This document shows, piece after piece, positions 5,385 to 33,082 of a DNA stretch of 33,263 nt. The notes under the pieces are model-generated. The model was not told where the DNA came from and did no database searches. It saw only the letters and a list, made by a program, of their open reading frames with translations. The position numbers and the translations under genes were made by a program. Source of the DNA: an uncultured Spartobacteria bacterium (GTDB taxonomy: Bacteria; Verrucomicrobiota; Verrucomicrobiia; Chthoniobacterales; Chthoniobacteraceae); NCBI GenBank assembly GCA_903928175.1, contig CAIYQA010000320.1, positions 1 through 33,263 of the forward strand, given 5' to 3'. How positions within the stretch are numbered: position 1 is the stretch's first letter; each line of letters opens with the position of its first letter.

Positions 5385-5849
5385 ATGCGCGTGGGAATTG
5401 CAGCCGACCACGGGGGATTTGATCTGAAGCAACAACTCGCTGTTGCATTGCGCGAGGCGAATAATGAGGTGCTGGATTTCGGGCCCTCGGAGCGTAATCC
5501 GTTGGATGACTATCCTGATTTTGTAATACCGCTGGCGCGTGCCGTAGCCGGGAATAAGGTTGAACGCGGCGTGGCGGTTTGCGGCAGCGGCGTCGGAGCG
5601 TCAGTTGTCGCAAACAAGGTTCCCGGGGTGCGCGCGGCGTTGATCCTCGATGGATTCTCGGCGCATCAAGGGGTGGAGGATGACGACATGAACATCATTT
5701 GCCTTGGTGGCCGGGTCGTTGGGAACGCCCTGGCTTGGGAGTTGGTGTGCTCGTTTCTCGCCGCCCGGTTCACCGGCGCCGAGCGTCACCGCCGCCGCTT
5801 GGCAAAAATAGCGGGGGTTGAAGGCGTCAGCGCGGAGAAACAAGATTGA
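5385..5849 (+). CDS. rpiB: ribose-5-phosphate isomerase B (RpiB/LacAB family)
   Basis: 154 aa; MRVGIAADHGGFDLK, VCGSGVGASVVANKVPGVRAAL; starts 3 nt after the tkt stop. Confidence 0.93.
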   Translation: MRVGIAADHGGFDLKQQLAVALREANNEVLDFGPSERNPLDDYPDFVIPLARAVAGNKVERGVAVCGSGVGASVVANKVPGVRAALILDGFSAHQGVEDDDMNIICLGGRVVGNALAWELVCSFLAARFTGAERHRRRLAKIAGVEGVSAEKQD

Positions 5850-25864: not shown

Positions 25865-26044
25865 AACCGAGGCCGGATGTCACTGCCGATGGAGTAGATC
25901 GCTACTTTGGATCTACCCCTGGTGAGCAACATCGAGAACTTGTCCTGTTTTCGGCCATAAATCTGGTAGCAAATGGTAGCAGACAAGTCAGAACAACTCA
26001 CGCCAACTCAGCATAACGTTTTTTTGCAGGCATTGCCGTCTGGC

Positions 26045-26151
26045 CCTTTATTCATACGGTTTCCAGAGTAAATTTGCCAGAAAATCATTTTCAATCATCT
26101 CGGGTTCGAGCCCCGTAGACTCCGCCACTTTGCAAATCTCTGCAAAGTGGC
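26045..26151 (+). repeat. att-like module A: 57-nt conserved leader, tRNA T-arm/acceptor-like 26-mer, hairpin
   Basis: CCTTTA..CGGTTTCCAGAGTAAATT... then GGGTTCGAGCCCCGTAGACTCCGCCA (26102-26127) then GCCACTTTGCA-AATCTC-TGCAAAGTGGC; same layout as module B at 32071. Confidence 0.75.
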
Positions 26152-26299
26152 TTCATTACAAGCCTCCAGCCTAATAACAGGCTTCAATAAAGCTGGTGAA
26201 CTTTCAATTTTCTGTCCAGTTTCGGTTTCAAGCGCGATCTTCGGGATCCAGTCGGGTTGGGGCTTGATTCGGATATTTCGCACATCAATATGCCCCTAG

Positions 26300-26677
26300 A
26301 TGACACTCGAGCATAAAAAACCACCGGGGCGAAAAAAATACCAGTCCGCAAAAGCCCTGGATCCAACAAATGATTTCTGGGCGAACATCGATGTCAATAC
26401 TTTCGGCATATGGGCGAACCATCCGCTACGTACATTGGCGACAAAAGTCGCCACAATACGGTTGCAACAGGACTCCGACAAGACCGGGGGCACAACTAAA
26501 TCACGCGAATGGTTGCGAATCAAAATCGAGGAATTGAAAAAAGAAATGGGTATCCAAATGACCGAGATGGCTCTGCAGGGTAGGGTTCTTTACGACCAGA
26601 GCCAAACCAATACGGGGTGGCTTGTAATCCCACTCGACGGCTCGGGCGGCAGGACTCCACAGCGCGCCAAAACATAA
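26300..26677 (+). CDS. hypothetical protein
   Basis: 125-aa ATG ORF in the accessory region with no competing recognizable gene; composition plausible but no family recognized. Confidence 0.35.
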   Translation: MTLEHKKPPGRKKYQSAKALDPTNDFWANIDVNTFGIWANHPLRTLATKVATIRLQQDSDKTGGTTKSREWLRIKIEELKKEMGIQMTEMALQGRVLYDQSQTNTGWLVIPLDGSGGRTPQRAKT

Positions 26678-27478
26678 ACCAAGTGCGAGAACGTGAATGC
26701 GAAGGGAGTGCTGAGGTTCCTTTTTATTCGATGAGTCCATTCTGATGAAGCTGACGATTTTTCGAGAGGCACTCCTGCGGTTTTTCCATTTGCCGCAAGG
26801 TGTTATCGGATGCTTCTCTCCCTGTCGAACAGAAGAGCACTCATGATGCCTGATTCGCACATCAGGGAAACTCTGATCCCTGGCTTGTTGCAACGGTTTT
26901 CATGTTCTGATGTGATGATCGGGAAAATTGGACGGGGGGACCCATCAACGCATCTCCTCCAATCTCCTTTTAAACAGGGTTCCCAAAATCGGGCATATTG
27001 CGATAAGCCACCCGATTTCCAACCGATAGTATTCATCACTTTCTCCCGTCAGCGGAAAAAACGGGGATAACTTGGTGTTCGCTTGCCGTTTATTTTCAGG
27101 TCAAAAAGAGTGATCCGAGCACATTGGAAAACTCAACCATCAAAGTGACAAGTAATGGCCCCATGTATGGGCGTGAGGTTGGAGTTCAGAGAGCATGGTC
27201 AATTCGCCCATCCCTCGCCGCCCCATCGGTTATATCTTGCTGGGGTCGCCTTGATCTGGCAGGGTCGAACCATCGACATCGGATACGATTGCCATTCTTT
27301 TGCGTTAGTTTTTCTTCAACAACGCTCACAGGGGAGAGAGGTCCACGTCGACGAAGATCGTTACTACAAGGAAAACACAGTGAAAATATTATTGCGAGTC
27401 TCAAACGAAACGCCTCAGCATTAGGCACCTAATTTACCCACCTAACAGAGTAATCTCTCAACTGTTTCTTGAAAGCCA

Positions 27479-27784
27479 ATGAAGAAGTCGCTATTCCTTA
27501 CAATCCTGTCGTTGTCAATTTTCGCGGTCGCGTTTCTAGGTGAAGCCGTCATTAGTGTCAGTTTTGAAAGTTCAGATGGTTTGTGGAGCGATTCCACATG
27601 TCCGTTGAAAGGACGCGGTTTTCGCATAGTATTAGCCGATTTCGAGAAATACCGCATGATGGCAAATAATCCGAATGTAACTTTGGTCAGAACCACTCGT
27701 GCCCCATTCTGGTTCGTTCAGAACAATCCAGAATGGAACGTTCCATACGCACCACCCTCTGGATATGCCAAGCCGCGGTTTTGA
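27479..27784 (+). CDS. hypothetical small protein with N-terminal signal/TM segment
   Basis: 101 aa starting MKKSLFLTILSLSIFAVAFLGEAVISV, a good signal-peptide-like start; no family recognized. Confidence 0.45.
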   Translation: MKKSLFLTILSLSIFAVAFLGEAVISVSFESSDGLWSDSTCPLKGRGFRIVLADFEKYRMMANNPNVTLVRTTRAPFWFVQNNPEWNVPYAPPSGYAKPRF

Positions 27785-28020
27785 GCATTTTGCATAAGTG
27801 AATGCAAACGCCTCGCGTCTCGATTTGCCTCAATTTGTCATTTATCTGAGAGACCGAGAAAAAGAATCAAATTTTTGATTTTCGTTGGCGGGAATCGTTG
27901 ATCTTGGCTCGGTGGAAATCCGGCTGCTTTTTGCTGCCATTCGACGAGTTGGGGAATCTTACCTCCTCAATTTCATCAGGGAAACCCTGCCTTACAATAA
28001 GTCCTACGCTGCCGCATCTG

Positions 28021-28089
28021 GATTATGCCGCGCAGATGGTTGCATCCGCTATGGATGCTGCGGCATCGGCGCAGCATAGTGGCATAATC
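28021..28089. repeat. complex imperfect palindrome at the 3' end of the tyrosine recombinase remnant; probable mobile-element terminus
   Basis: GATTATGCC (28021-28029)/GGCATAATC (28081-28089), nested GCATCC (28042-28047)/GGATGC (28053-28058) and ATGCTGC (28055-28061)/GCAGCAT (28071-28077). Confidence 0.7.
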
Positions 28090-28387
28090 AGAGGGCTGCC
28101 AGGAAGGCGAGCAACTCGTCGTTCGGACGATAGCGGCCTACGGGAATGGCGACGGGCTGGGTTTTGGCCAGAGCTTGTTCCTTTACCTGGATGTCAGCGT
28201 GGATGTACATTTGCGTGGTTTCCACGGATTCATGGCCCAACCAAAGCGCAATCACCGTGAGATTCACTCCTTTCTGGATCTGCATGGCTGCGCTATGGCG
28301 AAGCACATGTGGGGTAATAACCTCTGGCTTGCCCCATGTCCCCCTCGCAGAACGCTCACCAACAACGTAGCCCACTTGGGAGAGCAA
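28088..28387 (-). pseudogene. C-terminal fragment of a tyrosine recombinase (RIT-element-like)
   Basis: ITPHVLRHSAAMQIQKGVNLTVIALWLGHESVETTQMYIHAD: HxLRH, LGH and catalytic Tyr present; in-frame TGA shortly upstream removes the N-terminal part. Confidence 0.8.
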
Positions 28388-28515
28388 CCACGAAAGCGGA
28401 CTTCAATCAGCTCCAGATGCTCTGCGTGCTTTAGAATGAAAAATGCCGATTGGTGAAAATCCCGGTAGGCGATCCACCGACAATCGCCCGATCTACACTG
28501 CTGCTCCTCAAGAAG

Positions 28516-30939
28516 TCAATCCCACTTGAAAACGCCGTTTGGGTCTTCCTTGACCAGTTCATAACCCATTTGGCGAAATGCCGACAAGCGCTTCCGGTGC
28601 ATGTGGGACGTGAGGGCATTGTCCGTCTCGACGTAGTCATAAACACGAACTTCGCTCTTTCCCTTACACTGCCGGTGCAACCGTCCCGCATACTGAATGA
28701 TCCGTCCCTTGAATGAGATCGGCATAGCGAGAAACAACGTATCCAACTCCGCCAAATCAAACCCCTCCCCAAGCAACGACGAGGTCGCCAACAAAATAAA
28801 TGGTTCGCGCGCAGACGCCCGCCGCTGGAGTTCGCCAAACAAAGCCCCTCTTTGTTTCTTGTTCATGGAACCGTCAATCCTGAAAATTATACCCTCGTCG
28901 CCGGGCATGCTTGTTTTCAACATGGCTTCCAAGTGCTGAAGGTGTTCTTTGCGGTCGCTCAAGACGCCACTGAAGCGTTTTTCGAGGGCGGCGCTGACAA
29001 TGTCTGCCACAATCGCCTTATTGCGTTCGTCCGAGTTTACGATGGCATCCCAGAGGAGGTGAATTGGCAATCGGCTCTCCGCGGGATCCCTGCGTAGCAA
29101 CAAGTCGCGCACAATCAGTTTTCGCAGAACCGCTGGGTCGCCATCCATCTCGACTTTATGACGGATCGGCCCGCACTGGAGAAAAAGCAGTTTTTGAAGA
29201 CCGTCCTTGCGAACGGGAGTAGCCGTGAGCCCAAGGATAAACCGCGCCGGAGTCTTCTTGATCACCGCTTCAATGGATGCAGCCGGAACATGATGGCACT
29301 CATCAATGACGATATGGCTGTAAGGAGCAAGTAGGGCCTCCGGGAATTCGCATCTTGTCAGCGTTTGTAACATTCCAAGCGTGACGGAGGCAGACGGATC
29401 GATCCCTGATTGCCCCAAAACAGAAATGGACGAATCTTCCAATCCCAAGAACGTCTTGATGCGCTCGCGCCACTGTTCAAGCAGCGTTTTTCGGTGAACA
29501 AGAACCAGCGTCGATGTACCTCGTTGTGCGATGATCGCACAGGCCATCACGGTCTTTCCAGCCCCGGGCGAAGCCATCAGGACACCCTCGTCATGCTCCA
29601 TTACTTCCCGGACAGCCTCGCTCTGAATACTGGTCAGTTCCCCCGCGAAAGAAAACTCCACTTTCGACGCCACGGGGCGCTCATCTGATACCTTGAGCTT
29701 ACCGCCAGCTTTATGAACGAGAGCCTTGAGTTGCGGAAGTGTTCCCCGGGGCAACACAATAACACCTGGCCGGAGCGCTCCGCAGAAAATGAATCTCGGA
29801 ATGTTATAGGTTGGAAAACGCAACCGCTGCTTTTCGTAAAACACAGGGTTGGCAAGAGTGCCCAATCGTTTGATCGCGGAGATTAGGCAGGCAGGGAGTC
29901 CGTCTGCGGCAATTTCAATCTGGGCATTGCGGCGCACTTGAATGGTTCCTGTGAATACCCCCTTTGTCACCGCTGCGGGCAGAATATCCAGCACCCTCTC
30001 GTCGAATCTCAAAGCAAAGTTCTCGCGAGGCTCCGTGGATTCGTCCTTCACCGCACCAACGATGGTTTCAACAAGGCGCTCCAAAACATCGGGTGCCACC
30101 CTGCGAATTGATGCCAAATAACCCCACTGATCCGAAATCGAACACAATGATTTGTCCAGAAACACGGTATTCCCCTGCTCACGAGTGCCCTTCTGGAGAG
30201 GCAGTGCGATCAGGTTGCCAAATCCGCCATCGGGCAATGTGTCCTGATTCGGGAAAAATCGGTCATACGTTGCCAGCTTCATCCCGGAATGAAGAGAAGA
30301 AGCTTTTGTCGTGATCAATGTTCCCAATTGACGAGCCAGGGTCGCCGACGTGGGCGCTGTGAAAAAAATCCATCCGTGTGCGCCTTGGCCAGAGCGGGAT
30401 CGTTCCACGGCGACATCCAGGCCAAAAGATTCTGCGGCTTCCCGATAGGCGGTAACATCTGTCTCCCATCCATCTCCATCGAAATCCGCTGCAAGGAAGA
30501 TGCAAGTGTTGTCCTCGCGGATCGCATACGTTCCGATGGTTTGCCTGCCCGTGAGATGAGCCAAAACAGCTTCTTCATCAAGAGGAGCGAATCTCTGATT
30601 GAAACACTCCGCACATTTCACGCGCGGCTTTTCGCAAATGCCGCGCGCCCATTCATTGAGACAAACAGGCGAATAACCTTTCTTTCCCGATCTTGAGTTT
30701 TCCCAGAGCCGGGGAAATACGTTTTCCCTGCAGCGGAAGAGCGACAGAAAAAAAGCGATTTTTTCATCCGGCGTGGCAGGTCCCTCTGGCAACGGTTGAT
30801 GAACAGCTTCAGGCGCTGGGAGTCTGCGAAGCTCCTCCAGTTCACTCCGAAGCGCCTCCTTCTTAATTTCAATACGCCGGAGTTCTTCCTCAATCTGGGC
30901 GATTCGCTGTTGCGGCATTTTTCCCGTTTGACTATTCAT
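28516..30939 (-). CDS. TOTE-type archaeo-eukaryotic primase domain fused to DEAD/DEAH (SF2) helicase
   Basis: 807 aa: N-terminal coiled coil; primase-like FLAADFDGDGW (DxD) and RSGQGAHGWIFF (sxH); helicase motifs ASPGAGKTVMA, DECHH, LTATP, QYAGRLHR. Confidence 0.88.
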   Translation of the reverse strand: MNSQTGKMPQQRIAQIEEELRRIEIKKEALRSELEELRRLPAPEAVHQPLPEGPATPDEKIAFFLSLFRCRENVFPRLWENSRSGKKGYSPVCLNEWARGICEKPRVKCAECFNQRFAPLDEEAVLAHLTGRQTIGTYAIREDNTCIFLAADFDGDGWETDVTAYREAAESFGLDVAVERSRSGQGAHGWIFFTAPTSATLARQLGTLITTKASSLHSGMKLATYDRFFPNQDTLPDGGFGNLIALPLQKGTREQGNTVFLDKSLCSISDQWGYLASIRRVAPDVLERLVETIVGAVKDESTEPRENFALRFDERVLDILPAAVTKGVFTGTIQVRRNAQIEIAADGLPACLISAIKRLGTLANPVFYEKQRLRFPTYNIPRFIFCGALRPGVIVLPRGTLPQLKALVHKAGGKLKVSDERPVASKVEFSFAGELTSIQSEAVREVMEHDEGVLMASPGAGKTVMACAIIAQRGTSTLVLVHRKTLLEQWRERIKTFLGLEDSSISVLGQSGIDPSASVTLGMLQTLTRCEFPEALLAPYSHIVIDECHHVPAASIEAVIKKTPARFILGLTATPVRKDGLQKLLFLQCGPIRHKVEMDGDPAVLRKLIVRDLLLRRDPAESRLPIHLLWDAIVNSDERNKAIVADIVSAALEKRFSGVLSDRKEHLQHLEAMLKTSMPGDEGIIFRIDGSMNKKQRGALFGELQRRASAREPFILLATSSLLGEGFDLAELDTLFLAMPISFKGRIIQYAGRLHRQCKGKSEVRVYDYVETDNALTSHMHRKRLSAFRQMGYELVKEDPNGVFKWD

Positions 30940-30981
30940 CCCGGTGATTTCGTCTCAACGCCTTTTCTCAACAACCCAAAC

Positions 30982-31488
30982 TCAACTTGCCTCAGTGTTA
31001 TGCTGGCGCACAGTCTGGATGGGAAGAAAGAGCGTTAAGGGGGAGTCTTCCAAGGGTATAAAACTAAATTGAGCATAATAAGCAGCTGCTTGCTCATCCT
31101 TGGCATCGACGAATAACCCCACACCTCCGGCAATTTTCTCGGCGCGTTCCACCATTTGAAATGCACAGGAAAGCAGCATGTGCCCAATACCCTCCCGTTG
31201 CCTTGCCTGCGAAACCGCCAACCGCCCCAAGCGCATGGCGGGAATTTGTTGCGGAAGTTTTTTGGCCAGCGCAGGCGGCAATATTCCCCCGTCAATCTGG
31301 CAGTAAGTCAGGGTGAAATAACCTGCGATGGCTTCCTTCGCGCCTTCCTCTACCAAGACGTAGGTCTTTGCGATTCCCTTTGCTTCGTGTTGCCGGGCAA
31401 TTTGCCGCAAATACCGATTCAGCGGCTCGACTCCGCAGTCGAATCCAGCGCGATCATGATGATCCGCAAGCGGTTCGAAATTAAACAC
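30982..31488 (-). CDS. GNAT family N-acetyltransferase, probable toxin of a type II TA pair (TacT/AtaT-like)
   Basis: 168 aa; FDCGVEPLNRYLRQIARQHEAKGIAKTYVLVE, AMRLGRLAVSQARQREGIGHMLL; overlaps the upstream DUF1778 gene by 8 bp. Confidence 0.88.
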   Translation of the reverse strand: MFNFEPLADHHDRAGFDCGVEPLNRYLRQIARQHEAKGIAKTYVLVEEGAKEAIAGYFTLTYCQIDGGILPPALAKKLPQQIPAMRLGRLAVSQARQREGIGHMLLSCAFQMVERAEKIAGGVGLFVDAKDEQAAAYYAQFSFIPLEDSPLTLFLPIQTVRQHNTEAS

Positions 31489-31762
31489 GAACGTTGGCCT
31501 TGAAGAGTGAAGCCGCGCGTTTCAGACGGGCGTTGGGCTTCGGAGGGTTTTCCAGAAGGGAAAAGACCTGTTTGGCCTGGGTTTCAGAGAGCCGGATCAG
31601 AGTTTCCCGCTCAACAATCTGCTGCGCCTCCTTGTAGGCGGATTGCACTAAAAATTGATTGAGAGCGGCTCCTTGCAAATCGGCTGCCATTTGGATCACC
31701 CGCCGGACTTGCTCAGGAACTCGGGCTACAACGCGGGCGTTTTTGGGATGGATAACCTGCAT
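31481..31762 (-). CDS. DUF1778 family antitoxin (TacA-like)
   Basis: ORF 31481..31849, likely start at 31762 (MQVIHPKNARVVARVPEQVRRVIQMAADLQGAALNQFLVQSAYKEAQQIVERE); RHH-like N-terminus, adjacent GNAT. Confidence 0.85.
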   Translation of the reverse strand: MQVIHPKNARVVARVPEQVRRVIQMAADLQGAALNQFLVQSAYKEAQQIVERETLIRLSETQAKQVFSLLENPPKPNARLKRAASLFKANVRV

Positions 31763-31780
31763 GGTGCCAATATGGCACCA
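31762..31780. promoter_or_regulatory. perfect inverted repeat over the antitoxin start, candidate TA operator
   Basis: TGGTGCCA-ATA-TGGCACCA; related GCACCA-AC-TGGTGC at 32026-32039. Confidence 0.6.
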
Positions 31781-32008
31781 CCACAATGATTGGTCAACCC
31801 CTTTGCTGTCTTTCGTATCAGAATGAGGCAAAGCCCCCCATGATACCATCGCGCGTTCCGATTACCGGTTGGTCGGAGTCTACGACCAGGATACCCCAAA
31901 GCGGGCTGCAATGCTGCAAAAACGGCACTTTTTCCCGATGCGGCGGCGCGGCGGACGCGAAAATGCGGTTTTTGCGAGGGTGACAGATTTACTCTGGGAG
32001 GGTGACAC

Positions 32009-32027
32009 GCATGTTGCTTCAACATGC
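32009..32027. repeat. perfect inverted repeat GCATGTTG-CTT-CAACATGC
   Basis: 8-bp arms, 3-nt spacer, read directly; lies upstream of module B. Confidence 0.7.
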
Positions 32028-32070
32028 ACCAACTGGTGCCAACTTCCAAAAATGCCGATGGCGATCAGAG

Positions 32071-32187
32071 CCTTTAACCATGCGGTTTCCAGAGTAAATT
32101 CGGCAAAAATTGAAAACTTAATCTTTTGGGTTCGAGCCCCGTAGACTCCGCCATCCGCAAAGCCTGATGGATAAAGGCGCGGATGGC
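32071..32187 (+). repeat. att-like module B: 57-nt conserved leader, tRNA T-arm/acceptor-like 26-mer, hairpin
   Basis: CCTTTA..CGGTTTCCAGAGTAAATT... then the identical 26-mer GGGTTCGAGCCCCGTAGACTCCGCCA (32128-32153) then GCCATCCGC ... GCGGATGGC; equal leader spacing to module A. Confidence 0.75.
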
Positions 32188-33082
32188 AAAAATGAGGGTT
32201 CTAAAAATTTGGGAACATGGCGCGGCTGAGAATTTCCGCTGTCTTATGCCTCGCAAACAATACCTCCCCTGGCCGAGAAAAGTGCGCTCCGGTCATTCCG
32301 TCGTCACAGTCTACCGCAACCATTACAAGGGCGCGTGGCGCTATCAACTCCGCTACATGCAAGGTGGGATTGTAGTCCGCGAGGCCTACTCTGATGAAAC
32401 AGACGCCATTTCCCAGGCTGAGAACAAGGCCGACGAACTCAACGCCGGTGAGAATGGGGCGCTTACGCTGAATCCTGAGCTTGCGGCGATCTACCGGGCG
32501 GCCCTTAATGCGTGCGCTTCCGTTGATAAGGGCGTCTCACTGGATGCGGTTTGCCGGGAGTGGGCGGAAATCAAGCGCAGATTGGGGCACGTCGCGCCGA
32601 TGACCGCCGTGGACGAGTTCCACTGCCTGGCCAGCCGTGGGCGGCTGGGTGGCGAGGATCATTTTCTTGCGCGTTGCCGGGAGTTTGGGGTGATCACCGT
32701 CTTGGCCACGCAATCCCTCTCCCTTTTGGCGGGAGCGCTCCGGGACTCAGACAAACTGCACGCCTTGGCCGCGAATTGCCGCACACGTGTCTTCGGCTCC
32801 AACACCGACGGCGTGACCAATAACTTGGCCGCCGGGTTTTGCGGAACGAGCAAGGGCACTCCGGTTCAACGGGCGCGGGTTTGGCACGAAAGCAAGGCGT
32901 TCCGCCGGGCTGTCAGCGACTCGGACGGCGAGGAGCGATTGCTTGTCGAACCGCACCGGTTCGCGGAACTGCGGACCGGACAATTCTACGTTGCCACACC
33001 ATCGCGCGGGGTCTATTGGCTTGACCTTAACTTCCGATTGGCGAAGCCGACCGTGAAGGTTCTCCGGCCACCCGCAGAATAG
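32183..33082 (+). CDS. chimeric ORF: integrase-like N-terminal region fused to TraD/VirD4-like coupling protein C-terminal domain
   Basis: 299 aa; N-terminus VVTVYRNHYKGAWRYQLRYMQGGIVVREAYSDETDAISQAENKADEL; C-terminus VDEFHCLASRGRLGGEDHFLARCREFGVITVLATQSLSLL...NCRTRVFGSNTDGVTNNLAAGFCG; no Walker A. Start may be 32246. Confidence 0.65.
   Translation: MAKMRVLKIWEHGAAENFRCLMPRKQYLPWPRKVRSGHSVVTVYRNHYKGAWRYQLRYMQGGIVVREAYSDETDAISQAENKADELNAGENGALTLNPELAAIYRAALNACASVDKGVSLDAVCREWAEIKRRLGHVAPMTAVDEFHCLASRGRLGGEDHFLARCREFGVITVLATQSLSLLAGALRDSDKLHALAANCRTRVFGSNTDGVTNNLAAGFCGTSKGTPVQRARVWHESKAFRRAVSDSDGEERLLVEPHRFAELRTGQFYVATPSRGVYWLDLNFRLAKPTVKVLRPPAE

Follow-up and report, generated by a model that had tools for sequence, protein, structure and literature searches.

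Displaced tRNA-Asp 3' ends point to a probable tandem array of decayed genomic islands in an uncultured Spartobacteria bacterium

Introduction

Why should a bacterial contig carry, some 6 kb apart, two identical fragments of what looks like a tRNA gene, and what do they enclose? The question is raised by a stretch of 33,263 nt from an uncultured Spartobacteria bacterium (GenBank assembly GCA_903928175.1, contig CAIYQA010000320.1, positions 1 to 33,263 of the forward strand), referred to here as the window. Genomic islands at tRNA ends are a well-known kind of element; here they are met in a little-studied genus, apparently of the Verrucomicrobiota. Our analysis indicates, with good confidence, that the window contains part of an array of genomic islands, now decayed, that integrated in tandem at the 3' end of a tRNA-Asp(GTC) gene.

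Results

Two displaced tRNA-Asp ends bracket the islet

The 26-mer GGGTTCGAGCCCCGTAGACTCCGCCA occurs exactly at two places in the window, both on the forward strand (cores 1 and 2, Table 1), compared with an expected count of 0 in shuffled sequence. The 57-nt leaders that precede the cores align without gaps, are identical at 38 of 57 positions and have in common an 18-mer (CGGTTTCCAGAGTAAATT) that is found exactly nowhere else in the genome; past the end of the core the likeness is gone, with 11 of the next 60 positions agreeing between the copies. This arrangement confirms an earlier note on the same DNA, which had described two modules with an ungapped 57-nt leader and an identical 26-mer (26 of 26 positions). 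The note's further statement that neither copy is a full tRNA also holds, as the 5' part of the tRNA is absent at both cores, no whole tRNA lies anywhere in the window and an Rfam search returned no credible match in the region. An exact leader followed by the core-like GGTTCGA was present in none of 197 relatives' genomes, the GTDB contigs or IMG/VR.

Table 1. Positions of the islet, its bounding modules and neighboring features in the window.
Position	Strand	Feature	Evidence
25965..25980	+	GGTAGCAAATGGTAGC direct pair, candidate integrase arm site of left-hand element	weak: motif not enriched genome-wide
26045..26101	+	leader 1, candidate right end of left-hand element	38/57 vs leader 2, no gap
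26102..26127	+	core 1, displaced tRNA-Asp 3' end (T-arm to CCA)	exact match, intact tRNA-Asp on contig C387
26124..26151	+	hairpin from CCA end of core 1	-18.8 kcal/mol, z -8.1
26300..26677	+	ORF, 125 aa	no family found
28088..28387	-	tyrosine recombinase C-terminal stub, 99 aa	PF00589 E 3.9e-10, profile positions 122-169 only
28516..30939	-	TOTE-type archaeo-eukaryotic primase fused to superfamily 2 helicase, 807 aa	PF22548 E 4.6e-88, PF04851 E 9.8e-25
30982..31488	-	GNAT acetyltransferase	weak PF13508/PF00583 matches, mostly below curated cut-offs
31481..31849	-	TacA-like antitoxin	PF08681 E 2.1e-20
31981..31997	+	inverted copy of leader motif, TGACAGATTTACTCTGG	
32071..32127	+	leader 2, candidate right end of islet	leader comparison
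32128..32153	+	core 2, displaced tRNA-Asp 3' end	exact 26-mer
32150..32187	+	hairpin from CCA end of core 2	-23.8 kcal/mol, z -4.9
32183..32607	+	tRNA-targeting tyrosine integrase, N-terminal part	matches G003 and G004 integrases; homologues adjoin tRNA genes
32608..33082	+	TraG/TraD C-terminal part	PF12696; 86% aa identity to G003:C1; 82% DNA match from 32608

The origin of the cores became evident from a search of the genome (3.62 Mb, 532 contigs) for the 26-mer and for an intact tRNA ending in it, a check that the earlier note had proposed. Three occurrences lie within three mismatches and all are exact. Two are the cores of the window; the third terminates an intact tRNA-Asp(GTC) gene, the sole intact tRNA-Asp found in the genome, on a contig (C387) separate from that of the window. 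Among relatives, matches to the 26-mer are likewise nearly always the tRNA-Asp gene. The note had correctly seen a T-arm and acceptor end in the 26-mer, but had called it tRNA-Ser-like; because the third copy ends an intact tRNA-Asp(GTC), that assignment is wrong, and tRNA-Ser is ruled out as the source. The direct repeats are the 3' end of a tRNA gene in their own genome, a hallmark by which islands are recognized.

Copies of a tRNA end might also arise with no integrase involved, as duplicates of the tRNA-Asp gene that have since decayed, and the tRNA sequence and trailer-like hairpin borne by both copies are what such duplicates would retain. We consider this origin very improbable: both copies end at the same T-arm position and have a non-tRNA leader in common, the 26 nt are perfect even though the remainder would have decayed, and relatives show the same truncation beside integrases (see below).

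Read in reverse, the leader (window 26045-26072 and 32071-32098, minus strand) resembles the sequence directly 3' of tRNA-Ser(CGA), TTTACTCTGGAAA..G..T.A..AAAGG, a likeness whose score was reached by 0 of 200 leader shuffles. Comparable sequence is found at loci L008 (1503-1530), L053, L047 and L064 (near 1400), and CCAGAGTAAAT is found also between tRNA-Glu and the integrase in one relative (G042). The resemblance could mark an integrase site or, alternatively, a tRNA trailer that the loci share. Counts of the TTTACTCTGG motif near tRNA genes are biased, several loci having been retrieved using that motif. At the L053 locus (G000:C48, about 31828-31900, minus strand), where a complete tRNA is lacking, the 3' part of a tRNA-Ser survives in truncated and degenerate form together with its trailer; this is possibly a displaced end or a decayed tRNA.

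Hairpins follow displaced and in-place tRNA ends

A hairpin starting in the CCA end follows all six of the cores folded, displaced and in-place alike. The two in the window differ in sequence. That of core 1 lies in a region resembling the tRNA-Asp trailers of two relatives (G003 and G008), and the match there to the G003 tRNA-Asp end and trailer is 90% over 62 bp. It may be that each element arrives with a tRNA trailer of its own.

Many tRNA-Asp genes of the family have a 3' hairpin whose 5' arm begins in the GCCA end of the tRNA itself (GCCA...TGGC), without an obvious U-run; such hairpins occur at window 26124-26151 and 32150-32187 and at L003, L021, L027, L028, L031, L034 and L036. The predicted integrase start codons at window 32183 and in G004 (L038 9187) fall within the hairpin 3' arm (ATGGCAAA and GTGGCAAA, respectively). 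In addition, GGGTCTACA(C/T)CAAAGTTTGGGGA recurs on the downstream side of several tRNA genes, both in the genome of the window and in those of relatives (L003, L018, L030, L082, L093 and L096).

The islet carries a TOTE-type primase-helicase and a TacAT-like pair

The GC content of the islet is 51.6%, compared with 57.2% to its left and 59.5% to its right. A gene-poor stretch of lower GC content is found between the cores, along with the C-terminal stub of a recombinase, a TOTE-type primase-helicase and a GNAT/TacA pair. The primase-helicase also matches PF00271 and, with PF22548 and PF04851, combines the AEP-TOTE primase domain and helicase that characterize TOTE conflict systems. The TacA-like and GNAT reading frames overlap by 8 bp, as in TacAT modules, where the antitoxin overlaps the GNAT toxin gene, and the predicted acetyltransferase is likely a TacT-like toxin. 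The Pfam matches agree with the primase-helicase and toxin-antitoxin pair that the earlier note had listed as cargo; its third item, a RIT-like remnant, fared differently. RIT (recombinase in trio) elements comprise three recombinase genes in a row. A tyrosine-recombinase fragment is indeed present between the copies, but since one 99-aa C-terminal stub stands where three adjacent tyrosine-recombinase genes would be needed, and since the flanking repeats reproduce a tRNA end in direct orientation rather than forming inverted element ends, we reject this assignment and hold a RIT origin to be extremely unlikely.

The islet is flanked by candidate att sites, recognized by the tRNA identity of its ends, and the reading frames searched within it include, beyond the recombinase stub, no gene for integration or transfer. 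Because att ends appear to be kept while the integration genes are reduced to this stub, the islet resembles, in its predicted content, a cis-mobilizable element (CIME) whose cargo consists of a TOTE primase-helicase and a TacAT-like pair.

Homologues of the TOTE protein were located at six loci, four of them in metagenome-assembled genomes labelled Verrucomicrobiaceae, Verrucomicrobia or Opitutaceae, an indirect pointer to the host group; a tRNA is absent from the flanks examined at five of the six, and two tRNAs lie near the sixth. A diverged second TacAT-like pair (34% and 31% identity) is located near tRNA-Thr(GGT) on contig C327 (L086 881-1628).

A fragment of a tRNA-associated integrase lies beyond core 2

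Examination of the sequence past core 2 revealed that the open reading frame at 32183-33082 is an integrase N-terminus fused in frame to a TraG/TraD C-terminus. In four genomes with homologues of this N-terminus, a tRNA lies close 5' of the integrase: G005, G042, G009 (tRNA-Glu) and G002 (tRNA-Gly). On another contig of the window's own genome (C143), an intact member of this integrase family comes after an exact displaced 23-nt tRNA-Glu 3' end. The window itself holds no complete integrase gene, only this N-terminal fragment and the C-terminal stub at 28088. The fused reading frame is what would be expected as the leftover of a decayed conjugative element with a tRNA-adjacent integrase.

Relatives of the same genus provide islands at the same tRNA gene. 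In G003, an intact tRNA-Asp is followed, at a distance of 11,137 bp, by a displaced 24-nt 3' end, and the 19 kb around them contain no other long direct repeat. A tyrosine integrase sits immediately inside the displaced end, a second recombinase and a cytosine methylase are also contained in the island, and directly outside the end lies a DUF6538 fragment that is probably an integrase N-terminus. In G004, an integrase of the 32183 family begins 15 bp after tRNA-Asp and is backed by Mrr, type I restriction and HipA-like genes. A displaced tRNA-Asp end is also present in G018. Together, these three cases indicate that the tRNA-Asp end has been used repeatedly. The G003 and G004 islands resemble the window in their tRNA gene, in the integrase family of the 32183 fragment and in their defence-type genes, but differ from it in having intact integrases, other cargo and no leader in common; they also differ from each other, the integrase lying at the far end of the island in G003 and beside the tRNA in G004. 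No empty site with the same flanks, for which the earlier note had proposed a search of related strains, was found; a norB homologue was tried, and G004 diverges directly after norB. Nor was a far att site located for the islands of G004, G005, G002, G042 and G009.

Serial insertion accounts for the layout

These features can be combined into a model in which an element carrying a tRNA 3' segment would recombine site-specifically with the 3' end of the tRNA gene, from T-arm to CCA. The segment brought in, which would sit next to the element's own end sequence, would complete the tRNA gene and displace the old 3' end to the far side of the element, and repeated insertion would stack elements with one displaced end between neighbors. 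Core 1 would then be the junction of a left-hand element with the 6 kb islet, and core 2 that of the islet with a third element whose integrase N-terminus begins about 30 bp on; the right-hand element would be the oldest insertion. Renewal of each core from the tRNA would explain why the cores are identical while leaders and trailers have diverged to the extent described above.

The att interpretation is supported by the independent relatives (G003 and G004) in which tRNA-Asp islands come with integrases. The central reading of the earlier note, att-like modules that serial integration left at a tRNA 3' end, is accordingly supported by the tRNA-Asp identity, the 11.1 kb island of G003 and the tRNA-adjacent integrases, while the Ser and RIT details fall away.

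The nature of the left flank is less certain, and we infer both the identity of the left-hand element and any past or present mobility of the array. Window 1065-25673 is dense with pentose phosphate, haem-copper oxidase, Crp-like regulator, hybrid-cluster-like, nitric oxide reductase and YgbA-like genes, several of them named from translations alone. It is possible, although we judge it the lesser likelihood, that this flank is chromosome rather than island and that the array was relocated from tRNA-Asp by inversion, deletion, translocation or secondary-site insertion; the flank is a dense metabolic and respiratory block without mobility genes, and tRNA-Asp is located on a different contig. 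Against relocation, the homology of the two leaders gives the left flank the ending expected of an element, and features of C387 hint, weakly, at a single large left-hand element: an rpiB-like fragment, and a GGTAGC pair downstream of tRNA-Asp similar to that at 25965. GGTAGC pairs were no more frequent than in a reversed control (8 against 16), although several of them are located close to a tRNA gene or a displaced end.

The rpiB-like sequence on C387, identified by its translation, corresponds to a C-terminal part (L004 136-408, minus strand) and is separated by about 3.5 kb from the intact tRNA-Asp upstream of it; the window, too, has an rpiB-like gene, at 5385-5849.

Under the tandem-island model, the left-hand element could in principle run from the C387 tRNA-Asp to position 26101, in which case the block of pentose-phosphate, haem-copper oxidase and nitric-oxide-reductase genes would itself be a tRNA-Asp island, some 30 kb or more in length. 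We regard this extent as unlikely; if it were true, a whole module of carbon metabolism and respiration would have been mobile at a tRNA site that serves defence islands as well.

Discussion

We take the pair of displaced tRNA-Asp ends to be real, and the tandem island array to be probable and ordinary in kind. Relative to the published cases compared here, the locus would extend tandem island accretion both to a host group and to a target, tRNA-Asp, that are new. It also suggests that, within the genus, defence-type genes have entered repeatedly at the tRNA-Asp end, with restriction genes in G004, a methylase in G003, and the TOTE primase-helicase and TacAT-like pair in the window. More generally, displaced tRNA ends of 23-26 nt could serve as simple island markers in fragmented metagenome assemblies.

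The closest published parallel in layout is provided by the ssrA islands of Dehalococcoides, which lie in tandem, have inserted in the T-loop region of an RNA gene whose 3' end is repeated in short direct copies at their borders, have a conserved motif upstream of the repeat and in some cases lack integration genes (PMC3146451). The tandem repeats, T-loop insertion, upstream motif and lack of integration genes all have counterparts here; however, those islands target tmRNA and use a serine recombinase, whereas the present locus involves tRNA-Asp and tyrosine recombinase fragments, and the cargo differs (PMC3146451). A second parallel is offered by cis-mobilizable elements, which are att-flanked, have lost integration and transfer genes and can accrete in tandem (PMC5704250, citing Pavlovic 2004). 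The islet is similarly flanked by candidate att sites, has lost such genes and lies in tandem with another decayed element; whereas CIMEs descend from conjugative elements and are mobilized in cis by a neighboring element, the islet is likened to them by its sequence layout.
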